Shown here one piece after another: positions 2,658 to 46,219 of a DNA stretch of 64,000 bases; position 1 is the first letter of the stretch; every line of letters starts with the position of its first letter. Position numbers and translations under genes: made by a program. Source of the stretch: Alphaproteobacteria bacterium. Its GTDB lineage: Bacteria; Pseudomonadota; Alphaproteobacteria; Elsterales; Elsteraceae. Location: NCBI GenBank assembly GCA_004292755.1, contig RDXE01000026.1, forward strand, positions 1-64,000, written 5' to 3'. The notes below the pieces were generated by a model that saw only the letters and a program-made list of their open reading frames with translations, searched no databases and had not been told where the DNA came from.

Positions 2658-4742
2658 TTAGTGAGCGAGGATCGCCAACAGCAGGATCGCAACAATGTTG
2701 ATAATCTTGATCATCGGGTTGACCGCGGGACCCGCGGTGTCCTTGTACGGGTCACCCACGGTGTCGCCGGTCACCGCCGCCTTGTGCGCGTCGGAGCCCT
2801 TGCCGCCATGGTTGCCCTCTTCGATGTACTTCTTGGCGTTGTCCCAAGCGCCACCGCCCGAGGTCATGGAAATCGCAACGAACAGGCCGGTCACAATGGT
2901 GCCCAGCAGCATTGCGCCCATGGCCGCAAAGGCCTGAGCCTGACCGGCGATCATTGCCACCACCAGATAGAGCGCCACAGGGGCCAACACTGGCAGCAGC
3001 GACGGGATGATCATTTCCTTGATCGCAGCCTGGGTCAGCATGTCGACCGCGCGGCCATAGTCCGGCTTGGCGGTACCTTCCATGATGCCGGGGATTTCCT
3101 TGAACTGACGGCGGACTTCCACCACGACCGAGCCAGCCGCGCGGCCCACCGCAGTCATGCCCATGGCACCGAACAGGTAGGGCAGCAAGCCACCGATGAA
3201 CAGGCCAACCACCACATAGGGGTCCTGCAACTCAAACTTCACCGGCACATTCGGGAAGTAGTGCTTCAGGTCTTCCACATAGGCTGCAAACAGCACGAGA
3301 GACGCCAGACCAGCCGAGCCAATGGCATAGCCCTTGGTCACCGCCTTCGTGGTGTTGCCGACCGCGTCCAGCGCGTCGGTGGTGACGCGCACGTCCTTCG
3401 GCAGTTCGGCCATTTCGGCAATACCACCGGCGTTGTCCGTCACAGGACCGTAGGCGTCGAGCGCAACAATCATGCCGGCCAGCGCCAACATGGTGGTGGC
3501 GGCGATCGCGATGCCGAACACGCCAGCGATCAGATGGCCGGCGATGATGCCAGCGCAGATCACCAGCACCGGCAGCGCAGTCGATTCCATCGACACCGCC
3601 AACCCCTGGATCACGTTGGTGCCGTGACCAGTGGTGGACGACTGTGCAACCGAACGCACGGGGCGATACTCAGTCGAGGTGTAGTATTCCGTGATCCAGA
3701 CCAGCAGGCCTGTGACCGCCAGACCAATCAGGGAACAGATGAACAGACCAGTTGGCGTCACGATCCGGGTAATACCGCCAACCACCATCTCCATCTGCCC
3801 AGGCAGCATGGTGAAGGTAATCACGGCAATGAAGATCGCCGCGAACACAGCCGAGACAATCAGGCCCTTATACAGTGCCTTCATGATGTTGTTGTCGGCG
3901 CTGAGCTTCACGAAGAACGTGCCAATCACCGAGGCACCGATGCACACCGCGCAGATCACCAGCGGGTAGAGCATCAGCGCGGTCATCGTCGCACCGGTGA
4001 AGAAGATCGCCGCCAGCAGCATGGTTGCCACCACGGTGACCGCATAGGTCTCGAACAAGTCGGCCGCCATACCGGCGCAGTCGCCGACGTTGTCGCCGAC
4101 ATTGTCTGCGATCACGGCCGGGTTGCGGGGATCATCTTCGGGGATGCCCGCTTCGACCTTGCCCACCAAGTCGGCACCGACGTCGGCGCCCTTGGTGAAG
4201 ATGCCGCCGCCAAGACGGGCAAAGATGGAGATCAAGGAGGCGCCGAATGACAGCGCAACCAAGCCTTCCACCACCCGACGGGTCGGATATCCGAGGCCCA
4301 GCAGGCCGAAGTAATAGATGGCGACGCCCAGGAGGCCGAGGCCAACCACAAGCAGACCCGTGATCGCACCAGCCTTAAAGGCGACGTCCAGTGCTGGGAC
4401 CAGGCCGTTGCGCGCTGCTTCCGCAGTCCGCACGTTGGCGCGCACCGACACGTTCATGCCGACATAGCCAGCAAGGCCCGACAGCACTGCACCGATCGCA
4501 AAGCCGATGGCGACGTGAATGCCAAGGGTCAACGCCAGCAGCACAAACAGCGCGACACCGACGATCCCAATGGTCTTGTACTGACGGTTCAGATAGGCCT
4601 GTGCGCCTTCCTGCACCGCAGCGGCGATTTCTTGCATCCGCGCATTGCCCGCGGGTTGCGCCAGCACCTGCTTGCCCGCATACGCGCCATAGGCGATCGC
4701 AAGCGCGCCGCAAGCCAGCACCAAAATCTCGAGGCCGGTCAT
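2658..4742 (-). CDS. hppA: K+-independent proton-translocating membrane pyrophosphatase
   Basis: Hydrolyses cytoplasmic pyrophosphate and pumps protons across the inner membrane. The 694-residue product has the multi-TM layout of the family (about 16 segments). It carries the PPi-binding stretch with '[13 protein letters not shown]', '[19 protein letters not shown]' and '[11 protein letters not shown]', and the C-terminal 'DNAKKYIE' and '[13 protein letters not shown]' motifs. The GNTTK signature, with Lys rather than Ala after GNTT, marks the K+-insensitive class. I chose the ATG reading MTGLEIL, with GGAGGA 12 nt upstream; a TTG eight codons earlier is possible. In Rhodospirillales this gene often lies near thiL and bamE; here bamE is close and thiL is 16 kb away. 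Confidence 0.97.
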
Positions 4743-37261: not shown

Positions 37262-38017
37262 TCAGACGACATCCCGCAAGGACGCGTGGCGCTCAGGGCC
37301 ACGGTGATCCAGATACGCTGGATCAAACCCCGCCAGGCTGATCAGCCCCTGATAATCCTGAAACGAGACAGCGCCGTCCCGAAACACCAGAAGGCCCTGT
37401 TCGCGCAGCATTCGTAAGGTGCGGTTGACGTGAATCGCGCTCAACCCCAGCGCATCCGCCAAATGGTACTGGGTGAGCGGGCAGTCATAGCCTTTGGCGT
37501 CGCCGATGCCAGCAAACCCCAGCCGGACGCCCAGTTCCAACAGGAAGTGCGCCATCCGCGCCGCAGCATCGCGACGGCCAAGGCCAACCAGGTGCTCGCT
37601 CACCACTGCCTCATCGCGCGCCGCGGCCCACAGCACCGCCGCCGCAACGCGGGGAGATTGGGCAAAGGCGTCGGCCAGATCAGCCCCCTGAACCTCGGCA
37701 GCCTCGCAGGGGGTGATGGGTTCCTGACCCAGGTCACAGGTGCGCAACACCAAGTTGCGCAACCCCAAAACATCGCCGGGAATCCGCACATCGACGATCT
37801 GACGGCTGCCGTCGTTTTGAAGTTTGTAGGAACACACCCAGCCGGTGACGAGGATGAAAGCGCTTTGATTGGTGCGCCCCTGGTGCACCAGATCACGCCC
37901 GATGGCAAAGCTGCGGCGGCGATGCTGCAACCGCTCTACCAGCACGCGATCCGCCTCGGTCAGACCACCTGCTGCACCAAGCTTACGGCTGAACGCCGAG
38001 GCCGCTGGCACCTCCAT
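37262..38017 (-). CDS. Crp/Fnr-family transcriptional regulator
   Basis: A 251-residue regulator. The cyclic-nucleotide-binding fold spans about residues 20-145 ('GRDLVHQGRTNQSAFILVTG', 'IVDVRIPGDVLGLRNLVL'); the Crp winged helix shows 'DCPLTQYHLADALGLSAIHVNRTLRMLREQGLL' in parts. There is no N-terminal Cys cluster, so it is not an oxygen-sensing FNR. The phosphate-loop Arg-Ala-Ser of cAMP-binding Crp is not obvious. The ATG at MEVPAAS is chosen because upstream in-frame sequence has a different, non-coding-like composition. It may control the oxygenase/transport cluster. Confidence 0.85.
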   Translation of the reverse strand: MEVPAASAFSRKLGAAGGLTEADRVLVERLQHRRRSFAIGRDLVHQGRTNQSAFILVTGWVCSYKLQNDGSRQIVDVRIPGDVLGLRNLVLRTCDLGQEPITPCEAAEVQGADLADAFAQSPRVAAAVLWAAARDEAVVSEHLVGLGRRDAAARMAHFLLELGVRLGFAGIGDAKGYDCPLTQYHLADALGLSAIHVNRTLRMLREQGLLVFRDGAVSFQDYQGLISLAGFDPAYLDHRGPERHASLRDVV

Positions 38018-38186
38018 CACCGGCGCCCGCCGAGGTGTCGGCCGTGGCTGATGGCCCCCATGATCCCCGCCTTCCGAGCGCGGACCCGTCGCAAGCCGAC
38101 CAAGCCTCCCAAACACCCAGGCCGACGGTATAGCCTCAAGACGGCAGTGTCGATTGACGTGACGGTGGGGCGATGAAGTGCCTTGG

Positions 38187-38579
38187 TCAGGGCAGTTGGT
38201 GAAGACCACCAAAAGTGTGAGCAAGGTCGACCAACGCCGTCTGCAGGTTGATAGGATTAGAACCCACCAATCCCGCGATTGACGCGTGACAGGGGTCAGG
38301 ACCGGACTGAGACACCCGCAACCCAAGGTTCCTGACACCGCCTACCGGCAACACACAGAAATAGCTCAGCTGTGACAGCTTTATTCTGCGTGCTGCTTCA
38401 AACACATCTGCGATTTTTCCAGGACACTCTACCCACTGGCAAGATAGGCGACCCTTATCAATCTCGCGAAGCGCAAACGCCGCAAGCGGAACTTGTGTTC
38501 CATATACTTGCGGGAAAAAGCATTTTTTAGGAACTCCGCGGACCAGAAAATGCTGATCTTGAATAGAAGGCACAGACAA
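38187..38579 (-). CDS. Hypothetical protein, doubtful
   Basis: An open frame of 130 codons with a TTG start, no clear Shine-Dalgarno and third codon positions much poorer in G+C than the neighbouring genes. It contains 'AAFALREIDKGRLSCQWVEC' and 'LSQLSYFCVLPVGGVRNLGL'. I recognise no domain. It lies 12 bp after the next hypothetical gene, same strand. It may be a recently acquired gene or non-coding DNA. The adjoining 38018-38186 holds nothing I can name. Confidence 0.3.
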   Translation of the reverse strand: MSVPSIQDQHFLVRGVPKKCFFPQVYGTQVPLAAFALREIDKGRLSCQWVECPGKIADVFEAARRIKLSQLSYFCVLPVGGVRNLGLRVSQSGPDPCHASIAGLVGSNPINLQTALVDLAHTFGGLHQLP

Positions 38580-38591
38580 ACTACAACTCGC

Positions 38592-39047
38592 TCAAAACCA
38601 GGGCGCGAACATCACGCGCAACTGAGTGGCATCCAACACTGCGCTGATATCAATAATATCCCACGAGCCAGACTCTGTTTTTCGAACCAGTGTAGCCCTG
38701 CCATCTTCGTGGAATCGAACGGTTGTGTATTGCGGTGTCACACCAGCATTGTCGCCGTGCGGAACCAGATCAAACTCAGGATTGCCAACCCAGACAAACT
38801 GCGGTTCCCGAACGGGTACCTGAGACAAGAACCTCTCGGCAGCGAGAACTGCAAGACGCGTGGGAGCAACCATCACGTCACCGTCGTCATCCACCCCATT
38901 GTTGGCTCTATCCCGCGCGTATTGGTCGAACTGTCGCAACGCAGCCAGCCCCGGCGCCTCCGGTGGCTCTGTCACCGGAGGCGGCGTGGTCGACGAATGA
39001 CCCAACACCTGCCGCCCCACCGACACGAATTCAGCAACCTTCACCAT
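38592..39047 (-). CDS. Hypothetical protein
   Basis: A 151-residue protein, ATG start with GGGAG close upstream. The N-terminal third contains a Pro/Thr-rich stretch ('HSSTTPPPVTEPPEAPG'), then an Asp-rich 'GVDDDGDVMV' and a C-terminal part of beta character ('FVWVGNPEFDLVPHGDNAGV', 'YTTVRFHEDGRATLVRK'). I recognise no family. Codons are less G+C-biased than in the flanking oxygenase genes. It follows the oxygenase beta gene by 17 bp on the same strand, so it may be co-transcribed. Confidence 0.55.
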   Translation of the reverse strand: MVKVAEFVSVGRQVLGHSSTTPPPVTEPPEAPGLAALRQFDQYARDRANNGVDDDGDVMVAPTRLAVLAAERFLSQVPVREPQFVWVGNPEFDLVPHGDNAGVTPQYTTVRFHEDGRATLVRKTESGSWDIIDISAVLDATQLRVMFAPWF

Positions 39048-39064
39048 GGCTCCCAGACCCCGCG

Positions 39065-39532
39065 CTACACCGGAACAATAAGCGAATTCGGGATCAGCGG
39101 CGAGTCGTAAACGGCGATTTTTTCTTGGAAGCGCAGGCCGTCTGCTGTCTCGATCAAGCGATCAATCAGACGCCCAGTTGCCAGTATCGCCGTAGGCTCC
39201 CCCTCAATCGAGTGAAGCATGAGGAAGTTGGCGCGCACCAAAATTGCGTCGCCATCGCGGCGGATGCGCATCGCAGACAAGAAATGCCGCACCCGCCGGG
39301 GCGCGAACATTTGCGTGCGGCGCAGGCTGGTGACGCGATCTTCCAGCATTGCCACGCTCTCACAGGCGATCAACGACAGCGGCAGGCCGCGGTCCCAGTT
39401 CTCGGCAGCCGTGACGCGATAGCGGCAGGGGTCCAGGAAGAACCCTGGCCACGCCTCATAATCCCCATCATCGAGTGCGCCGATGTAAGCGTCATAGACT
39501 TCGCGCACCGCGAGGCGTTCGTCTGGTGTCAT
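39065..39532 (-). CDS. Aromatic-ring-hydroxylating oxygenase, beta subunit
   Basis: The 155-residue small subunit has the SnoaL-like cone fold: 'REVYDAYIGALDDGDYEAWPGFF', 'CRYRVTAAENWDRGLPLSLI' and 'RRVRHFLSAMRIRRDGDAILVRANFLML' in pieces. It supports the alpha3beta3 oxygenase and lacks metal sites. It starts three bases after the alpha stop, so alpha and beta are co-translated. Confidence 0.93.
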   Translation of the reverse strand: MTPDERLAVREVYDAYIGALDDGDYEAWPGFFLDPCRYRVTAAENWDRGLPLSLIACESVAMLEDRVTSLRRTQMFAPRRVRHFLSAMRIRRDGDAILVRANFLMLHSIEGEPTAILATGRLIDRLIETADGLRFQEKIAVYDSPLIPNSLIVPV

Positions 39533-39535
39533 CGC

Positions 39536-40777
39536 TCAAATCCCCATCACTTGACGATAATGCCGGTACAGCTTGCGAATTGCCGCTTCGGTCAGTTGAT
39601 GCTGGGTGTCATCGACCGAGTATCCCCCCATTTCCACCACGGCCGCGGCCTCGGGGTAACCGACGAGGCCCTGTTGGGCCATCTCAATCACCTCGCCATC
39701 ATCAACTGAGACAAGACCGGCGGGGCCAAACAAGTTCGCCTGTCTCAGGCGTCGTTGCTTCATCTCCGGTGTATCGTCCGCGTAGGTGAAGTGGGTCCAG
39801 ACAAAATCAAACGCCCCAGGCCCCCGCGGCTGGATTTGCCGGGTTGATAAGGAATTGGTTTGCTGCTGCAAAATCACATTCGGCCACAGGGTTTGCATGA
39901 CAACAGTTTCCGGGCCTGCGAATTCTTTCACGGGATCGAGGATACGCGGGTCCGCCAGCCGCAAGTCGCCCTGGAACTGACCCAGATTGCTGGTCACCTC
40001 GTTGGCTACCTGCTCTCCCTTCTGAGACACCAGCACGGCGTGCATGCCCGTGTCATCCATTTCAATTCGGGAGGGCTGATCGGCCCGGAACAAGCCGAAG
40101 GTGACAAAGAACACATGCAGCGTCCCGGCATGGTAGGGGTCTTTGATGTTCTCCAGCATCAGCTTCCAGTTGCCAGGGATACGCTGCCGGGAATAGCCAA
40201 GCACTTCCAGGGGGCGGCCATTGAACAGTCGGTCAAAGTACCCCAGCATCTTTGGCCCGAGGTAATCCTCGAACGTTGGTGGCGCCTCAGCAAAGCTGGC
40301 GAACACAGCCCCGCCGCGTTCCACCACCTTTAACTGCTTCAGGCTGTGATCCTCGAGACGGAATTCCTTCGGCATGCCCCCCTGCCCTTTAAGGCCGCGG
40401 CGATAGGGGACCGACGTCAAAGCCCCGGCCAGGTCATAACGCCATTGATGATAGGGACAGAGAAATTCAGTCGTCGTGCCAAAGTCCTGCTGGCAGAACT
40501 TCACCCCGCGATGGGCGCAGCGGTTCTCCACCACCCGGATGGTGCCATCGGCCCCCCGCACCACCACCACGGGCCGCTCGCCGATCGCGGTGCGCTTGAA
40601 GCTGCCAACGTCTGGCACCTCTGAGGCCAGCGCAACATAGCTCCAGGTCGGGCCGGAGAAAATTCGCGCCTGCTCCAACGCATACAGGTCAGGGTCGGTG
40701 TAGACCCAATAGGGCACCCGTGCCTCATCCCCGACCGGCCACTGCCAGCGCGCGCTGGCCCCCACGGCTCCATCCAT
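39536..40777 (-). CDS. Rieske aromatic-ring oxygenase, alpha subunit (salicylate/benzoate-type)
   Basis: Catalytic large subunit of 413 residues. The Rieske cluster is bound by 'NRCAHRGVKFC' and 'LCPYHQWRYDLAG'; the mononuclear iron by the His pair in 'LENIKDPYHAGTLHVFFVTF' with a downstream Asp. 'FGLFRADQPSRIEMDDTGM' resembles salicylate 5-hydroxylase (NagG-like) and related carboxylate oxygenases, so a hydroxylated or amino benzoate is a plausible but unproven substrate. The start at MDGAVGAS has GGGGGAGG upstream; an earlier in-frame ATG lacks one. Ferredoxin and transporter genes follow on the same strand. Confidence 0.93.
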   Translation of the reverse strand: MDGAVGASARWQWPVGDEARVPYWVYTDPDLYALEQARIFSGPTWSYVALASEVPDVGSFKRTAIGERPVVVVRGADGTIRVVENRCAHRGVKFCQQDFGTTTEFLCPYHQWRYDLAGALTSVPYRRGLKGQGGMPKEFRLEDHSLKQLKVVERGGAVFASFAEAPPTFEDYLGPKMLGYFDRLFNGRPLEVLGYSRQRIPGNWKLMLENIKDPYHAGTLHVFFVTFGLFRADQPSRIEMDDTGMHAVLVSQKGEQVANEVTSNLGQFQGDLRLADPRILDPVKEFAGPETVVMQTLWPNVILQQQTNSLSTRQIQPRGPGAFDFVWTHFTYADDTPEMKQRRLRQANLFGPAGLVSVDDGEVIEMAQQGLVGYPEAAAVVEMGGYSVDDTQHQLTEAAIRKLYRHYRQVMGI

Positions 40778-41323
40778 ACCGGCCTCCCCCTCCGTCTGGA
40801 TTACCTGCATCTGCAGATATTTCACCAGACGGTACACCGTCATGGACGACAGTCAATGGCGGGATGAGGGCAGCGTGCAATCCTGATCAACTTCGCGGTC
40901 AAGACCGGTTTGTCCGGTCGGACCCCCGTGCTTCAGTAAGCGCGACACCATCATGATCGCCGGATGGGTCAGCTGGAACAACCACGCTGGAGGGACATGC
41001 GAAACACCGGTATTCGTGCTGTGTACGAATGACAAAATGCCCAGGCATTCAATCATTGATCGCACTTATCGCAAGATGAGACTAGCCAGCAGGCCAGACC
41101 ATAGTCTGAGAGACCCAAACCAGCAATGCCGCACCTTCAGGCCTGTCGGACGCTGCCGAAGATCCACACAGCCCACTCTGGGTCCAAGGTGCCGACACGA
41201 TGGCGGTCGTAACCATCACCGTTGGCCACGACGGCTGTCGCCCCGCTTAGGCACTCGCCGGGACAGACAAAGGTGAGCCGTTCGGCCGCCGACATGCCTG
41301 TCCCGGATGAGTGGTCAATCCCG
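40778..41323. other. Intergenic stretch with one inverted repeat
   Basis: No credible gene. A GACCGG-TTTGT-CCGGTC inverted repeat lies at 40903-40919, about 125 bp upstream of the oxygenase alpha start, and could be an operator for the oxygenase operon. Base composition drops around 41000-41110. The small frames here are antisense or lack ribosome-binding sites. Confidence 0.5.
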
Positions 41324-41473
41324 TCAATGACAATGGACAGTCCCACTGCGGTTATCGCGATGGCAGCACTGACCAGGCGGCGAGTCGCGGCGACAGCCAC
41401 CACCGTGGGCGAAGGCACTTCCAAGAGTGATCACAACAAACAACGCGGCGAGGATTGCGATACTCCAGCGCAT
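41324..41473 (-). CDS. Small secreted Cys/His-rich peptide (YHYH-like)
   Basis: A 49-residue gene too short for routine ORF cut-offs. A GGAGGA stands five bases before the ATG. The signal peptide is clear ('MRWSIAILAALFVVITLGSA', cleavage after FA). The mature part of 27 residues begins HGGGC, then has GQCCHRD and ends TVHCH. This HGGG...GCH.D...G..HCH arrangement resembles short tails of secreted bacterial proteins described as YHYH-type, and could bind a metal. The overlapping longer frame on the same strand is rejected because it lacks these signals. Function unknown. Confidence 0.65.
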   Translation of the reverse strand: MRWSIAILAALFVVITLGSAFAHGGGCRRDSPPGQCCHRDNRSGTVHCH

Positions 41474-41732
41474 ACTCTTCCTCCAAAGCCCAAAAGACAG
41501 GTCTCATAAGGCCAGGCCAAACAGAGAGATTTGGCTGTCATCATCGCTAGGCTTTGAAAATTGCTCGGTCAATCGCCCTCCAGCAATACCCGGACAACTT
41601 TTCAGGAGATCACTTCGGACCGCTCGTGGCTCGCCGCAGGCCCCTTCCGCTGGGCGCCTGCGCAGAAAATTCAACCAGGCGCCTCGGTTGGCTGGTTTGG
41701 CCCATGCCCCAACCGCCCTACACTGCCGCCCC

Positions 41733-42161
41733 ATGACGTTCGATCTGCAAACCTATCTGCCGTTCCTGCTGAACCGCGCGGCACGCCGGATTGTTGAAGG
41801 GTTCTCGGCTGAGCTGCAGCCCCATGGCCTCTCGCTGCGGGAGTGGCGGGTACTGGCAACGCTGCTGCACACACCCAACATCCGCTTGGAAGATCTGTCC
41901 GCAGCCGTTGCAATCGACCCCTCCACCCTGTCGCGGCTGGTCGGGCGGTTGGTACGCCAGGGCCTCGTCCAACGGGCGGAGGACCCGCGAGACCGCCGCG
42001 CGCTAGCGCTCACCCTCAGCGAGCAGGGCCACGCTGTTACCGCCGCCCTGGTGCCGAAAGCCCTTGCCTGGGAGGCGCGGATGGCGGCGGGCATTGCCGA
42101 GGCGGACCTTGCCCATCTGCGCACCCTGCTGCAGCGTCTCGATGCCAATCTCGGCGGGTAG
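41733..42161 (+). CDS. MarR-family transcriptional regulator
   Basis: A 142-residue winged-helix regulator: 'YLPFLLNRAARRIVEGFSAEL', 'GLSLREWRVLATLLHTPNIR', recognition helix 'AVAIDPSTLSRLVGRLVRQG' and wing 'QRAEDPRDRRALALTLSEQG'. It precedes the amidase by 72 bp on the same strand and may regulate it. An upstream in-frame start would prepend about 100 residues of non-protein-like sequence. The 260 bp before it hold no other gene. Confidence 0.9.
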   Translation: MTFDLQTYLPFLLNRAARRIVEGFSAELQPHGLSLREWRVLATLLHTPNIRLEDLSAAVAIDPSTLSRLVGRLVRQGLVQRAEDPRDRRALALTLSEQGHAVTAALVPKALAWEARMAAGIAEADLAHLRTLLQRLDANLGG

Positions 42162-42233
42162 CGTCCCTGCGCTCTGGTCACCGACGCGGCCAAGCGCCAC
42201 ACTCACCTCTCTGTCGGGAGAGTGTTCCGCGCG

Positions 42234-43661
42234 ATGACCAGCCCCAAGCCTTCCACCCCAGCCGATGTTTGCCGCTTGAGTGCTGCGGAATTGGCAGCCG
42301 GGTTTGCCAATCACACCCTCGACCCTCGTGTGGTGACGGAGCAGTGCCTGGAGCGGATTGAGGCGACCCGCCCCCTCTGCGCCTTCGCCTATGTCGATGC
42401 CGAGGGCGCGCGGGCAGCCGCAGCGGCCTCGGCCGCGCGCTGGGCGGCGGGGGCGCCGATGTCGCGTCTGGATGGCGTTCCAGTGACCCAGAAGGACTTG
42501 CAGCACGTCCAGGGGTGGCCAACCCGCCGCGGCTCTGCTGCGACAGACGACGCCCCACAGCCGGTGGACAGCCCCTCCTCGGCCCGTCTGCGCGAGGCGG
42601 GCTGCGTTATGCTGGGCAAAACCACCACGCCGGACCATGGCTGGAAGGCAGTGGGCGACAGCCCCGTCACGGGCATTGCGCGCAACCCCTGGAATCCCGC
42701 CCACACGCCGGGAGGGTCCTCGGCCGGGGCCGCAATTGCCGCTGCCGTCGGGGCTGGTGCGCTGCATGTCGGCACCGATGGTGGCGGGTCGATCCGCATT
42801 CCGGCTGCGTTCTCTGGCATTGTTGGCTTCAAGCCGACCTGGGGCCGGGCGGCGATGTGGCCGCCCTCCCCCTTCGCGATTGTCAGTCATCTGGGGCCAA
42901 TGACGCGCACCGTCGCCGATGCCGCCCTGATGATGAGCGTGCTGGCGGGCCTGGATGCGCGCGATGCCAATCAAATCCCGCTGCGGCTGATGGACGAGGC
43001 GCACCTGGACCAGGGGCTATCCGGCCTGTCCATCGCACTGTCCCTCACCCTGGGCCAGATGCCCGTGGACCGGGAGATCGCAGCCGCTGTTACAGCCGCG
43101 GCCGAACTGGCTGCAGCGGCAGGAGCCGTGGTGGAGGCGGTGGACCCGCCGTTGCCCCCCGACATCCAGCGCGCATGGCTGACCTTTTGGAACGGCGGTG
43201 CTGCGCGCCTCGCCGACACGCTACCAGCGGACCGGCTGGCCCTGCTCGACCCCGGCCTCGGCGCGTCGATAGAAGCAGGACGCCGCCTCAGCGCTCGGGA
43301 TTGGTTGGCAGCCGAGGCGGTTCGGATGGCAAGCGTGGCCGCCATGAGCGCCTTCCATACCCGTCATCAGCTGCTGATCACACCTGCGGTGGGGGTTCCC
43401 GCCTTGCCCGCGGGCGCCCTGTTGGCACGCCCGACCGATCAACATTGGACCGACTGGGCCGGGTTCGCCTGGCCGTTCAACCTGACCCGCCAACCGGCCG
43501 TGGTGATCCCCTGCGGCCTGACTGCTGCTGGCCTGCCGATCGGGGTGCAAGTCCTTGGCCCGATGTATGCGGATGCGGAGGTTTTGGGGGCCGCGGCGGC
43601 CCTGGAACGCTTGATCGGCTTCGCTGCCCGCCATCCGCTGCCGCTTGGTATCGGATGCTGA
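42234..43661 (+). CDS. Amidase (amidase signature family)
   Basis: A 475-residue Ser-cisSer-Lys amide hydrolase. The catalytic Lys is in 'LDGVPVTQKDLQHVQGW', the cis-Ser in 'HTPGGSSAGAAIAAAVGAGA' and the nucleophile Ser in 'TDGGGSIRIPAAFSGIVGFK'. It is not a GatA: there are no gatB or gatC neighbours and the specificity loop differs. The C-terminal 'IPCGLTAAGLPIGVQVLGP' is standard. The ATG is preferred over a GTG four codons earlier. Substrate unknown. Its end overlaps the next gene by seven bases. Confidence 0.92.
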   Translation: MTSPKPSTPADVCRLSAAELAAGFANHTLDPRVVTEQCLERIEATRPLCAFAYVDAEGARAAAAASAARWAAGAPMSRLDGVPVTQKDLQHVQGWPTRRGSAATDDAPQPVDSPSSARLREAGCVMLGKTTTPDHGWKAVGDSPVTGIARNPWNPAHTPGGSSAGAAIAAAVGAGALHVGTDGGGSIRIPAAFSGIVGFKPTWGRAAMWPPSPFAIVSHLGPMTRTVADAALMMSVLAGLDARDANQIPLRLMDEAHLDQGLSGLSIALSLTLGQMPVDREIAAAVTAAAELAAAAGAVVEAVDPPLPPDIQRAWLTFWNGGAARLADTLPADRLALLDPGLGASIEAGRRLSARDWLAAEAVRMASVAAMSAFHTRHQLLITPAVGVPALPAGALLARPTDQHWTDWAGFAWPFNLTRQPAVVIPCGLTAAGLPIGVQVLGPMYADAEVLGAAAALERLIGFAARHPLPLGIGC

Positions 43662-44785
43662 CAATCTCAGCCGCGGCGGCCCTTGCCTTCCGGCTGGAGC
43701 GCTTGCACCTGACGCAACCAGCCTGCGATATCCCAGCTGCCGCTTCGGCCTTGCTTGGCGCGCAGTCGCAAGTCGCCTCCGCCGGGCGCCTGCAGCTGGG
43801 CCAGCGTGCGGGCGAGCCAGTCACGGCCGTAGACCAAGCCGTGGCAGAGCGTCGCCTCGTGCGACTGTGGGCGCAGCGCGGCACGCTGCATCTCGTGGCG
43901 GCTGAGGATGTGCCCCTGGCGCTGGCGACGCGCGCGGCCGTGCTGCCGTCCTATGTGGCAGGGTGGGCGCGGGAGGGCGTGGAGCCCCCGGCCCTGGACC
44001 ACCTGACCACCACCATCGGTGCGGTCCTGGCCAGTGAGGGGCCGATGACGCGCCACCAGCTTGCCGATCATCTTGCCCCTCGGCTGGGGGATTGGGTGGT
44101 GCCCCATGTCACCGGCAGTTGGGGCGGCGCGCTGAAGGTGGCGGCCGCCCGTGGTCTGCTGTGCCATGGTCCGGAGACTGGCGAGGGCACGCTGTTCGCG
44201 CATCTGCCAAGCTGGATTTCCGTGCCGGAGATATCGATGGAGGACGGCTTGCGCCAGTTGGCGCGCCGCTACCTCGCTCGCTTCGGCCCAGCGACCGTGG
44301 GGGACTTTTTGAAGTTCACTGGCCTTCCAGCCGCTGCTGGACGGACCGCTTGGGCGGGCGTTGCCACCACACCGGTGCTGATCCGCGACCATGGAGAAGC
44401 CGCTGTGTTGGCGGAGGATGCAGACGCTCTCGCCGCCACACAGCCGACCGACCGCGTGATTGCCTTGGCGATGTTTGACCCCTGGCTGCTGGCCCATCGC
44501 AACACCGATCTGTATTTGGCCGCGCAGCACCGCCTTGCGATCTATCGCAAAGCCGGGTGGATTTCGGCGGTCTTGCTTGACGGTGGGCGCGTGAGCGCGA
44601 CGTGGTCGCGCAGCGACAAACCAGCAGCACCGCGGCGTGACGCGTCCCCTGGCCTCCGCCTGACCGTCACGCCGCTGGGTCGACGGGCCACCAAAGCCTT
44701 CAAGCAGCGGGCAGACTCTGCGCTTGCCGCCCTGCACGTCCATGCGGGTGAGGCCTTGCAGGCGATCGATTGGCATGCTTCTTGA
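43655..44785 (+). CDS. Winged-helix DNA-binding protein, YcaQ/AlkZ-like (HTH_42)
   Basis: A 376-residue member of the family of bacterial DNA glycosylases AlkZ/YcaQ, which act on bulky or crosslinked bases. Family features are 'SALLGAQSQVASAGRLQLGQR', 'LVRLWAQRGTLHLVAAEDVPL', 'SEGPMTRHQLADHL' and 'FDPWLLAHRNTDLYL'. The catalytic QxD/QxQ motif would be the 'AQSQ' stretch. The start overlaps the amidase stop, so it is co-translated. Whether it is a glycosylase or only DNA-binding cannot be told. Confidence 0.8.
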   Translation: MLTISAAAALAFRLERLHLTQPACDIPAAASALLGAQSQVASAGRLQLGQRAGEPVTAVDQAVAERRLVRLWAQRGTLHLVAAEDVPLALATRAAVLPSYVAGWAREGVEPPALDHLTTTIGAVLASEGPMTRHQLADHLAPRLGDWVVPHVTGSWGGALKVAAARGLLCHGPETGEGTLFAHLPSWISVPEISMEDGLRQLARRYLARFGPATVGDFLKFTGLPAAAGRTAWAGVATTPVLIRDHGEAAVLAEDADALAATQPTDRVIALAMFDPWLLAHRNTDLYLAAQHRLAIYRKAGWISAVLLDGGRVSATWSRSDKPAAPRRDASPGLRLTVTPLGRRATKAFKQRADSALAALHVHAGEALQAIDWHAS

Positions 44786-44799
44786 TCGCGGATACCGCC

Positions 44800-45480
44800 A
44801 TGATCAATCGCGTCCACCTCACCCGCCAATCCATCCTTGATGGTACTGCGCGCGCCGCACTGCCGATTGACCCTGCCCTTGCGTGGTCGGACGAGCAAAT
44901 CCTTGCCTCCCTTGATCACACCTTGGCTGCGGCACCACCGGGCGACATCTGGCTGTTCGCTTACGGCTCGTTGATGTGGAACCCGTGCATTGAGGTGGTG
45001 GAGCGCATAGGCGTCACGGTGCAGGGCTGGCATCGCTCCTATTGTTTGTGGAGCAAGATTGGCCGCGGCACGCCCTCCAAGCCCGGCTTGATGCTGGCAC
45101 TGGATCGCGGCGGGCGTTGCCATGGCATCGCCTTGCGCGTGCGCCGCGAGGATGCCCGCGCCGAGTTGGAGGTGGTGTGGCGGCGCGAAATGGTGGCGGG
45201 GTCCTACCACCCGCGCTGGGTGTCCGCGGTCAGCCCTGCGGGGCGGCTGACAGCCATAGCCTTCACCATGAACCGCACCCACCCCAACTATGCCGGGCGC
45301 CTGACGGACGAGGAGATCGCCCACGTGATCGCCACCGCCCGCGGACGTTTTGGCACCTGTGCCGAATACCTGTTCGACACACACCGCCATCTGGTCGAAA
45401 TCGGTCTGGTCGATCCCCGCATCGCCCGGCTGGTTCGCCGGGTGCAGGGTCTGGTGTCAGAGCCGCAATCCAAGCCATAG
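44800..45480 (+). CDS. chaC: Gamma-glutamylcyclotransferase, ChaC type
   Basis: A 226-residue enzyme that in relatives cleaves glutathione to 5-oxoproline and Cys-Gly. The N-terminal 'IWLFAYGSLMWNPCIEVVER' loop binds the glutamyl group, and the catalytic Glu is expected in 'VWRREMVAGSYHPRW'. The C-terminal 'GTCAEYLFDTHRHLVEIGL' is typical of ChaC. It starts 14 bp after the AlkZ-like gene. Co-location with a DNA-repair-like gene and an amidase gives no clear pathway. Confidence 0.9.
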   Translation: MINRVHLTRQSILDGTARAALPIDPALAWSDEQILASLDHTLAAAPPGDIWLFAYGSLMWNPCIEVVERIGVTVQGWHRSYCLWSKIGRGTPSKPGLMLALDRGGRCHGIALRVRREDARAELEVVWRREMVAGSYHPRWVSAVSPAGRLTAIAFTMNRTHPNYAGRLTDEEIAHVIATARGRFGTCAEYLFDTHRHLVEIGLVDPRIARLVRRVQGLVSEPQSKP

Positions 45481-45556
45481 ACACGAGTTTCGCTGCAGGG
45501 TGCGCATAGCTGACCCTCTCTGCTATCGGGTGGCACCTCTTGACACGACCCCGGCA

Positions 45557-45574
45557 TGCGAATGAACGTTCGCT
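45557..45574. promoter_or_regulatory. TetR operator upstream of tetR
   Basis: TGCGAATGAACGTTCGCT, an imperfect 18-bp inverted repeat, lies 33 bp before the tetR start. It shares the TGCGAAT-N4-(A/G)TTCGC plan with the perfect copy before the efflux genes, pointing to autoregulation. Confidence 0.65.
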
Positions 45575-45607
45575 TGCTTTTTGGGGCGGCGCTGGCGAGA
45601 GGCGACG

Positions 45608-46219
45608 ATGGCAGTTCAACACCTAACCACAGCAGAGCGACGACGCCGGGAAATCCTGGTATCGGCGGTGGACTGCTTTCGACGCGCTGGCTTCCATCAG
45701 ACCAGCATGCAGGACATCTGTGCCGCCGCACAAATGTCGCCGGGCACGCTGTATCGCTACTTCGCGTCCAAGGATGACCTGATCGTCGCCCTGGTCGAAG
45801 AAGAATTGGCGCGCGCGTTTGTTTATTTCGACCGGATCGAACGCGCGGACGACCTGCTGACGGCGATGATTGACGAGGCTGACACGATGTATTGGCAGGT
45901 ACCGGACGATGGACTTGGCCCGTTGACGGCCGACATCGCTGCCGAAGCCCTGCGCAATCCACGCATTGCTGAGGTTTGCCAGCGCATCGAACAGGCGTGT
46001 CTGGCGCGAATGGGCGAGGTGCTGAAGCGCGGGCAGCAGCGTGGCCAAGTCGACCCCGAACTGGACCTGATGGCTGCTGCCCGCTTGTTGTTTGCCATCC
46101 ATGATGGCGCTGTGATCCGCCAAACCTTCGCCAACACCAGCGATGGTGCCGTTGCCAAAGCAACTGCCCGCCGCTTGCTGGTTCGGTTCCTTCGCCCCGC
46201 TACGTTACCCACGCTGTGA
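45608..46219 (+). CDS. TetR/AcrR-family repressor of the RND pump
   Basis: A 203-residue regulator. HTH at residues about 14-60: 'RRREILVSAVDCFRRAGFHQ', 'TSMQDICAAAQMSPGTLYRY', 'FASKDDLIVALVEEEL'. The C-terminal ligand-binding domain is divergent. It lies directly upstream of the membrane fusion protein and RND permease on the same strand. Matching operators before it and before the pump suggest that it represses both and releases on binding a pump substrate. Confidence 0.92.
   Translation: MAVQHLTTAERRRREILVSAVDCFRRAGFHQTSMQDICAAAQMSPGTLYRYFASKDDLIVALVEEELARAFVYFDRIERADDLLTAMIDEADTMYWQVPDDGLGPLTADIAAEALRNPRIAEVCQRIEQACLARMGEVLKRGQQRGQVDPELDLMAAARLLFAIHDGAVIRQTFANTSDGAVAKATARRLLVRFLRPATLPTL

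Follow-up and report, generated by a model that had tools for sequence, protein, structure and literature searches.

The window, by which we mean the whole 64,000-nucleotide stretch of DNA analysed, carries on its minus strand a gene of 49 codons plus a stop (41324..41473), which runs from an ATG at 41473 to a stop codon ending at 41324 and is supported by its open reading frame, its relatives and purifying selection. A Shine-Dalgarno sequence, GGAGGA, lies five bases before the ATG (41479..41484, minus strand). Residues 1-22 (41408..41473, minus strand) form a signal peptide, as judged from the sequence and from a predicted AlphaFold helix at residues 2-22; it precedes the conserved Cys/His ligands and ends in A-F-A before His23, where cleavage would be expected. 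The predicted mature product (41324..41407 with the stop codon, minus strand) is the 27-residue peptide HGGGCRRDSPPGQCCHRDNRSGTVHCH, whose four Cys and four His follow the pattern HGGGC-x8-CCH-x8-HCH. Conserved columns, the AlphaFold model and the Cys/His counts all delimit this part. The preliminary description had proposed an unannotated small secreted-peptide gene on account of the ribosome-binding site, the signal peptide and the eight Cys and His residues, and each of these features was confirmed.

The codon-position GC of the gene (0.60/0.60/0.58) alone would not flag it as coding, and the pattern with its terminal stop occurs once in the window across all six frames. The core goes beyond chance because, together with the signal peptide, it recurs in other genomes. 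The 49-codon frame is a real gene: relatives carry the core behind a signal peptide and pN is far below pS, which rules out a chance reading frame.

The gene and its surroundings in the window

A pair of genes for a Rieske ring-hydroxylating oxygenase (39536-40843 and 39065-39532, minus strand) lies downstream, and a MarR regulator and an amidase are encoded upstream on the opposite strand. The preliminary description had noted that the gene lies beside this aromatic oxygenase cluster. Its proximity looks incidental, because no neighbour is widely common across the family; membership of an oxygenase operon was rejected for this reason and because the same-genus copy stands in a different setting, on a 4.7 kb contig (L177) whose called genes match none of those in the window. 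A leader peptide of a downstream gene was likewise discarded, since no downstream gene is common to the loci.

Local GC is 0.58-0.60 at 40750-41750 versus 0.68-0.71 across the amidase. The window contains no tRNA, and a structural RNA was rejected as there was no Rfam match within 38000-46000. Downstream of the peptide gene, another open frame on the minus strand (41140-41295) encodes a CPGEC motif and overlaps a region of strong RNA fold (41200-41330, minus strand, z -2.67). As a candidate second small protein it was set aside, with 0 relatives in 30 other genomes and plasmid matches that were weak and partial.

AlphaFold, run with 41 sequences, gave a best model with a mean pLDDT of 83.6 (four others, 70.3-77.6) and a pTM of 0.41. 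Besides the signal helix, this model contains a predicted beta-hairpin with strands at residues 37-40 and 46-48 (within 41324..41407, minus strand), which falls in the best-scored part of the model, with block mean pLDDT values of 92 and 88. The register, read from the strand limits rather than from coordinates, would place C37 opposite C48 and H38 opposite H47. A known fold was rejected: Foldseek returned no match at E 0.001, and a search of solved structures gave nothing convincing (best E 0.39).

Relatives, selection and kinship with YHYH peptides

A first scan with short seeds of the window peptide against one genome per species (84,980 species) returned three relatives, one in Bordetella sp. 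02P26C-1 (80% across residues 20-49) and two in Ruegeria. Apart from the window's own genome, the search covered one genome of the genus (G001), which holds a copy at 58%; the seven other genomes of the window's family yielded nothing better than E 0.02. In a second search, with a nine-row profile and E 1e-12 or better as the definition of a strong member, strong members turned up in 4 genomes at class level (385 searched) and in 7 at phylum level (398 searched), with both counts including the genome of the window itself; weaker profile matches (5 in the class, 6 in the phylum) are excluded from these counts. At E up to 1e-5, three families yielded matches in 35/295 (f23), 22/247 (f174) and 9/201 (f201) genomes, fractions that are not unbiased rates, as the families were picked for holding a match. 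The group labels used below (Roseobacter/Rhodobacterales-type, Rhizobiaceae-type and gammaproteobacterial) are assigned by inference from shared core subtypes and from named relatives, namely Ruegeria, Pseudosulfitobacter, Sinorhizobium, Rhizobium and Pseudomonas. Genes are simple ORF calls with start codons set by rule.

These searches show that four-Cys relatives are patchily distributed in Alpha-, Beta- and Gammaproteobacteria and are under strong purifying selection. Conservation in relatives, which the preliminary description had named as decisive, was borne out by the HGGGC/CCH/HCH core found behind a signal peptide in other genomes and plasmids. The frame also passed the substitution-rate test named beforehand: pN was 0.060 and pS 0.586 in 255 pairs drawn from 86 mature cores, with no more than 15 differences each, the pairs being non-independent and duplicates, including a few identical copies, being kept.

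The Cys and His content is nearly constant. Among 110 peptides, 109 have four Cys, 108 have four His (the other 2 have five) and 106 end exactly in HCH; the net charge of the mature part, with His excluded, is +1 to +5 in 109. These counts leave out the five two-Cys cousins described below (L025, L029-L032), the duplicate L103, five peptides with unclear frame, start or core (L079, L067, L007, L036, L100), the near-duplicate phage loci L207 and L209, and L222, which is without a full core. Alignment A4, comprising 63 of the 75 extracted four-Cys peptides and used for the column, Pfam, NCBIfam, hhalign and PHROGs analyses of the members, has the invariant columns H23, G25, G26, R28, S31, P32, G34, C36, C37, H38, H47, C48 and H49, with C27 and K29 at 90% or above. 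One natural copy (L042) has Tyr in place of C27. A truncated tandem copy was observed directly ahead of one full peptide gene (L080/L103, G1224:C37:478716-478973). Under a simple cleavage rule, a cleavage-like site stands immediately before the first His in 11/11 gammaproteobacterial, 33/38 phage, 22/26 Rhizobiaceae-type and 3/5 other copies, and in just 10/30 Roseobacter-type copies.

Curated models barely register the family. Pfam listed nothing for the window peptide and weak unrelated families for the 63 members (best E 0.018), so that membership of Pfam YHYH was rejected. The NCBIfam model NF033223 (YHYH_alt) scored the window peptide at 9.7 bits, below its cut-off of 30; it was listed for 29 of the 63 members (E up to 10, best E 0.003), in a scan that gave a bit score for the first member only, and had no match at E 0.01 in genomes G000 and G001. 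Listings of the NCBIfam PtrA N-terminus (19/63 members, best E 2.4e-5) and CpxP family (11/63) probably reflect the signal peptide. A PHROGs scan of the 63 members produced scattered matches, one at E 4.5e-5 and the others weak.

A comparison by hhalign of the 63 members with five two-Cys YHYH cousins, signal columns included, gave a probability of 98.2% (E 3.4e-14), and the alignment indicates that the C-terminal unit is homologous to that of the two-Cys peptides. The likeness to YHYH-type tails recorded in the preliminary description thus proves to be kinship, on the strength of this profile match and the weak NF033223 listings. Both groups have a signal peptide, an HGG or HSG start, a CH....G..HCH end (C-H ... 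G-x-x-H-C-H in YHYH_alt) and, for YHYH_alt, a length of about 42-49 residues. In contrast to YHYH_alt, the four-Cys family adds C27 and C36, which are absent as a pair in the five cousins compared, together with a five-residue insert with the segment CR[KR]xSPPGQC and a conserved CCH, and it has different neighbourhoods. With its CCH and four Cys, it does not fit the two-Cys consensus GCH-x-[DN]-xKTG-x-YHCH, which was derived from the five cousins and not from the curated NF033223 model. We read the four-Cys family as an unmodelled variant of the small YHYH peptides because the alignment shares their start and end and adds C27/C36 and the insert.

Other known systems are more distant. The YHYH domain of phage tail proteins, which we take to be PF14240, shares with the peptide the name and a predicted His metal site but is fused to tail or lectin parts, and Pfam has no match for the window peptide. 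CusF and CopK are periplasmic metal-binding small proteins of metal-resistance loci; the four-Cys peptide resembles them in being exported, small and provided with probable metal ligands, and differs in having no family match to them and no prominent linked efflux pump. NF040554 (mini_HHHH), by its name a family of very small His-motif proteins, matched weakly in just 2 of the 63 members (best E 0.0042). In a passage of PMC7824862, the YHYH domain of phage tail proteins is predicted to be a Zn-dependent hydrolase. The core strings HGGGCR and PPGQCCH, the combination of YHYH with small protein and metal, and phage-moron terms returned nothing from the open-access literature searched, and the papers listed for 'YHYH domain' or YHYH were, as judged from passages or titles, not about the four-Cys peptide.

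Neighbourhoods and mobile vehicles

Genes on either side of the peptide were clustered for 74 loci, made up of the window, 65 genome stretches and eight further loci. The peptide itself formed the largest cluster (16/74 loci) and the next covered nine loci at a median distance of 2.4 kb, so that no widely common neighbour of the four-Cys gene emerged. Among the immediate neighbours (122 of 146 scanned, short or redundant ones omitted), the commonest Pfam family was ketoacyl synthase, found 4 times, and no metal gene family was prominent among the best 25 of 127 Pfam families. Iron ABC transporter genes are found close to one of the plasmid copies. In four Roseobacter-type loci of f23 (L120, L125, L136, L145), the peptide gene is in the region of the ribosomal operon, beside or near rpmD (L30) and the L18 gene, in some cases with secY close by.

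For the two-Cys cousins, 17 plasmid regions were viewed, and in 10 of them a gene for metal efflux, resistance or sensing lies no more than about 3 kb away, a fraction that has no background control and comes from partly related regions (the cnr/chr type and the HupE/UreJ type each appear twice). The 17 regions were hand-picked for genus spread from two plasmid listings (90 and 106 records), and the one with czcA/cusF was picked after the listing had already shown 'mer'. The genes concerned are cnr/chr; Ni/Co efflux, DmeF or MntP with metal-sensing repressors; a metal-sensing repressor with HupE/UreJ; chrA; czcA/cusF; and czcS (2.9 kb away).

On pMOL28 (NC_006525) of Cupriavidus metallidurans CH34, a two-Cys YHYH gene (L033, about 3034-3156) is located next to cnrY, with a regulator gene that precedes the chr genes on its other side; the layout is similar in Cupriavidus sp. 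EM10, where the regulator is ChrI. In the part of PMC2864759 that covers this region, chrI and cnrY are numbered consecutively, 6204 and 6205, so the small gene was apparently left unnumbered. The CH34 proteome is uninformative on this cousin because, in the section of PMC11647595 concerned, proteins of 100 residues or less are described as strongly under-represented. On Rhizobium plasmids (L031, H16, H17, H18, H35, H67, H68, H73) the two-Cys gene overlaps or abuts a DUF5334 gene. Four further cousins (L250, L252, L254, L260) are near YqaA-family genes, with TraX-family genes in 3/4 and metal-sensing repressors in 3/4.

The four-Cys gene travels alone: it occurs on phage contigs, on plasmids and, in one genome, probably in integron cassettes. 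IMG/VR yielded 41 loci, 40 of them with a full peptide, and 32 of these 40 copies are about 5 kb or more from both contig ends; L205, L207 and L209 are alike in peptide and gene layout and count as one. Nine hallmark-type clusters were tested, each identified via one representative, and such clusters occur near the peptide in 13 of the 40 viral loci, a figure in which one near-duplicate set accounts for three. They comprise the large terminase, portal, replication initiation, phage transposase, and HNH or small terminase types, with terminases and portals that span several PHROG families. Further phage neighbours include repressors, integrases and an antiterminator (107 of 149 neighbours scanned, short or redundant ones omitted). 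Some viral copies are therefore placed among phage genes in the manner of a cargo gene (moron). The tested hallmarks were absent from all 74 window, genome and plasmid loci, and INPHARED phages, queried with one member, gave no match; phages are therefore one vehicle, not the home. One non-viral locus (L151) has 17 genes in common with viral loci.

Five plasmid copies were found, two in Sinorhizobium and one each in Rhizobium, Pseudosulfitobacter and Pseudomonas, together with two partial matches in Sinorhizobium medicae. None of these seven matches has a listed feature beneath it in the PLSDB gene tables, which are incomplete (two of the records list one or two features only). One plasmid copy has an IS701 transposase gene on one side and an IS110 transposase gene on the other.

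G1432 contains two copies, separated by 4.2 kb, inside 297-base repeats that are 91% alike, and we regard these copies as probable integron cassettes. Upstream of the first copy is a strong attC-like fold (z -5.3), and downstream of it are attC-like ends that form a pair (z -1.2); the other has a strong attC-like fold downstream (z -4.5) and upstream a GTTAGGT core alone (z +1.1). For comparison, 60 random pieces of this locus had a median z of -0.2 and a lowest value of -3.6. GTTRRRY cores at the locus were not above chance (27 versus a mean of 21 in shuffles), and the attC-like finder has low specificity, with about 0.1 hits per kb on each strand in loci outside the gammaproteobacterial group. 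Of 9 genomes, one (G1326) has an intact IntI above cut-off (389 bits), at a distance of 2.4 kb from the peptide. A broken IntI lies 2.3 kb from the peptide in G1292, and a broken piece lies 198 kb away in G1432; below-cut-off IntI matches also occurred in 14/14 control genomes. Beside the peptide genes of G1326 and G1292, the search returned no attC pair.

Proposed function, its rivals and the upstream boxes

Our leading, still tentative reading, to which we assign a probability of roughly 0.4, is that of an exported metal-binding mini-protein. We favour it because the potential ligands are conserved, a hairpin is predicted and metal genes stand beside the two-Cys cousins. After Sec export, signal-peptide cleavage would leave a 27-residue product in the periplasm or outside the cell. 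Its C-terminal half would fold as a small beta-hairpin with CCH opposite HCH, and the hairpin and the conserved HGGGC start together would form a compact Cys4/His4 site. Within the cell envelope, the likeliest partner of such a site would be a transition metal of the borderline or soft class (Ni, Co, Cu or Zn), and the peptide would act as a metal buffer or carrier, possibly with one Cys pair oxidised. A free N-terminal His may serve as one of the ligands, given the position of the first His after a cleavage-like site in most copies that are not of the Roseobacter type. The trait would be self-contained in one gene, which fits the way it is carried alone, be it on plasmids, on phage contigs or in probable integron cassettes. 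From the secreted metal-binding or disulfide-bonded mini-protein envisaged in the preliminary description, the gene, the export signal and the conservation stand, whereas the metal and the disulfides are read from the Cys/His content, the hairpin and the cousin neighbourhoods. Metal binding, like cleavage and a benefit of the peptide, is what we infer. Several observations weigh against this reading: the four-Cys type has no prominent metal gene family beside it, the fraction of cousin regions with metal genes comes without a background rate, a cleavage-like site does not adjoin the first His in 20 of 30 Roseobacter-type copies, and four of the five AlphaFold models scored lower, with a pTM of 0.41.

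The main rival is a disulfide peptide without metal, in which C27-C36 and C37-C48 would be oxidised by Dsb and the product would act on other cells or incoming phages, either in a bacteriocin-like manner or in superinfection exclusion by a prophage. It stands because four exported Cys can equally mean two disulfides without metal, and we consider it possible, at somewhat better than one chance in four. The near-constant four Cys, the extra C27/C36 pair that the five cousins lack and the positive charge of the mature part all suit it, as does the lone gene on phage contigs, where repressors, integrases and the terminase region are among the neighbours. A widely common neighbour that could be a candidate immunity gene is missing, however; the His are as strictly conserved as the Cys, the low pN speaks against an arms-race toxin, and one natural copy carries Tyr for C27.

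A second rival draws on the upstream regions. A motif search of 109 of them retrieved gTTaA..aattGTTAA with a likelihood of 112, versus 60-63 in shuffles. TTAA-N7-TTAA(C) is given as the CtrA consensus in passages of PMC4046655 and PMC6180460, and the former links CtrA to quorum sensing and gene transfer agents. Of 28 f23 copies, 12 have an exact TTAA-N7-TTAA box at most 200 bases upstream, and the number rises to 15 if one mismatch is allowed; for control genes from these loci the corresponding figures are 1/309 and 9/309 (Fisher p about 1e-13 and 8e-13, respectively). Restricting the f23 controls to intergenic ones gave 1/180 exact, and controls across all bacterial loci gave 3/715 exact and 19/715 with at most one mismatch. 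These box counts leave out the two-Cys cousins, L103, L079, L067, L007, L207 and L209. Many f23 copies are thus probably under CtrA control, with binding suggested by the motif, and this control was probably acquired by many copies within one alphaproteobacterial family. Neither these boxes nor the mobility of the gene had been foreseen in the preliminary description.

Exact boxes numbered 0 in the 23 Rhizobiaceae-type, 10 gammaproteobacterial, 38 phage and 12 other copies, the window's included; the window gene has no box within 200 bases even with one mismatch allowed, and a one-mismatch box precedes 1 of the 12 other copies, a Ruegeria. When the motif search was run on the Rhizobiaceae-type, gammaproteobacterial and phage groups, likelihoods exceeded those of shuffles only modestly. 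One-mismatch boxes were also observed upstream of 4/38 phage copies (L189, L212, L214, L219) versus 7/393 viral controls. In three f23 genomes and a Ruegeria genome, the strict box occurs 1 to 3 times per strand, versus 0 to 2 for a reversed control, and in G1012 and G974 one of these sites is the peptide gene's own. Ten genes beside other strict boxes were scanned: a LuxR-type regulator, two PAS proteins, a HisKA kinase, a GH108 peptidoglycan hydrolase, a transglycosylase, a glycosyltransferase, a cobalamin gene, a folate gene and one without a match.

The peptide could accordingly be conceived as an extracellular factor of a CtrA/quorum-sensing/gene-transfer-agent programme in Rhodobacterales-type bacteria that later spread elsewhere. 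The box enrichment in f23, the published consensus with its quorum-sensing and gene-transfer-agent link, and several of the ten box-adjacent genes (LuxR-type, PAS, HisKA, GH108, transglycosylase) agree with this, but the cobalamin, folate, glycosyltransferase and matchless genes do not, CtrA binding is deduced from the motif, and the lack of exact boxes outside f23 means that it cannot be the general function. We judge it unlikely. Very improbable is a selfish or neutral passenger conserved by frequent transfer rather than by a useful product, since the patchy occurrence and several vehicles would fit but the pN and pS values need protein-level selection and largely refute it.

A broader conjecture joins several of these strands: the Cys4/His4 peptide would be a one-gene cargo of phages, plasmids and integrons that was wired into the CtrA programme in one large alphaproteobacterial group, forming a new envelope metal centre, possibly with a free N-terminal His, and with a role in phage-bacterium or cell-cell encounters. 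We hold this to be decidedly unlikely, and marked it down slightly because attC-like sites flank only one of the two cassette copies on both sides.

Genes of fewer than 50 codons are seldom annotated, and the present one encodes a peptide that is under strong selection and is carried by several kinds of mobile element. The 27-residue product is short enough for synthesis, which makes metal binding and phenotype directly testable, and the promoter boxes provide a clear genetic prediction, namely that expression in Roseobacter-type bacteria would depend on CtrA.
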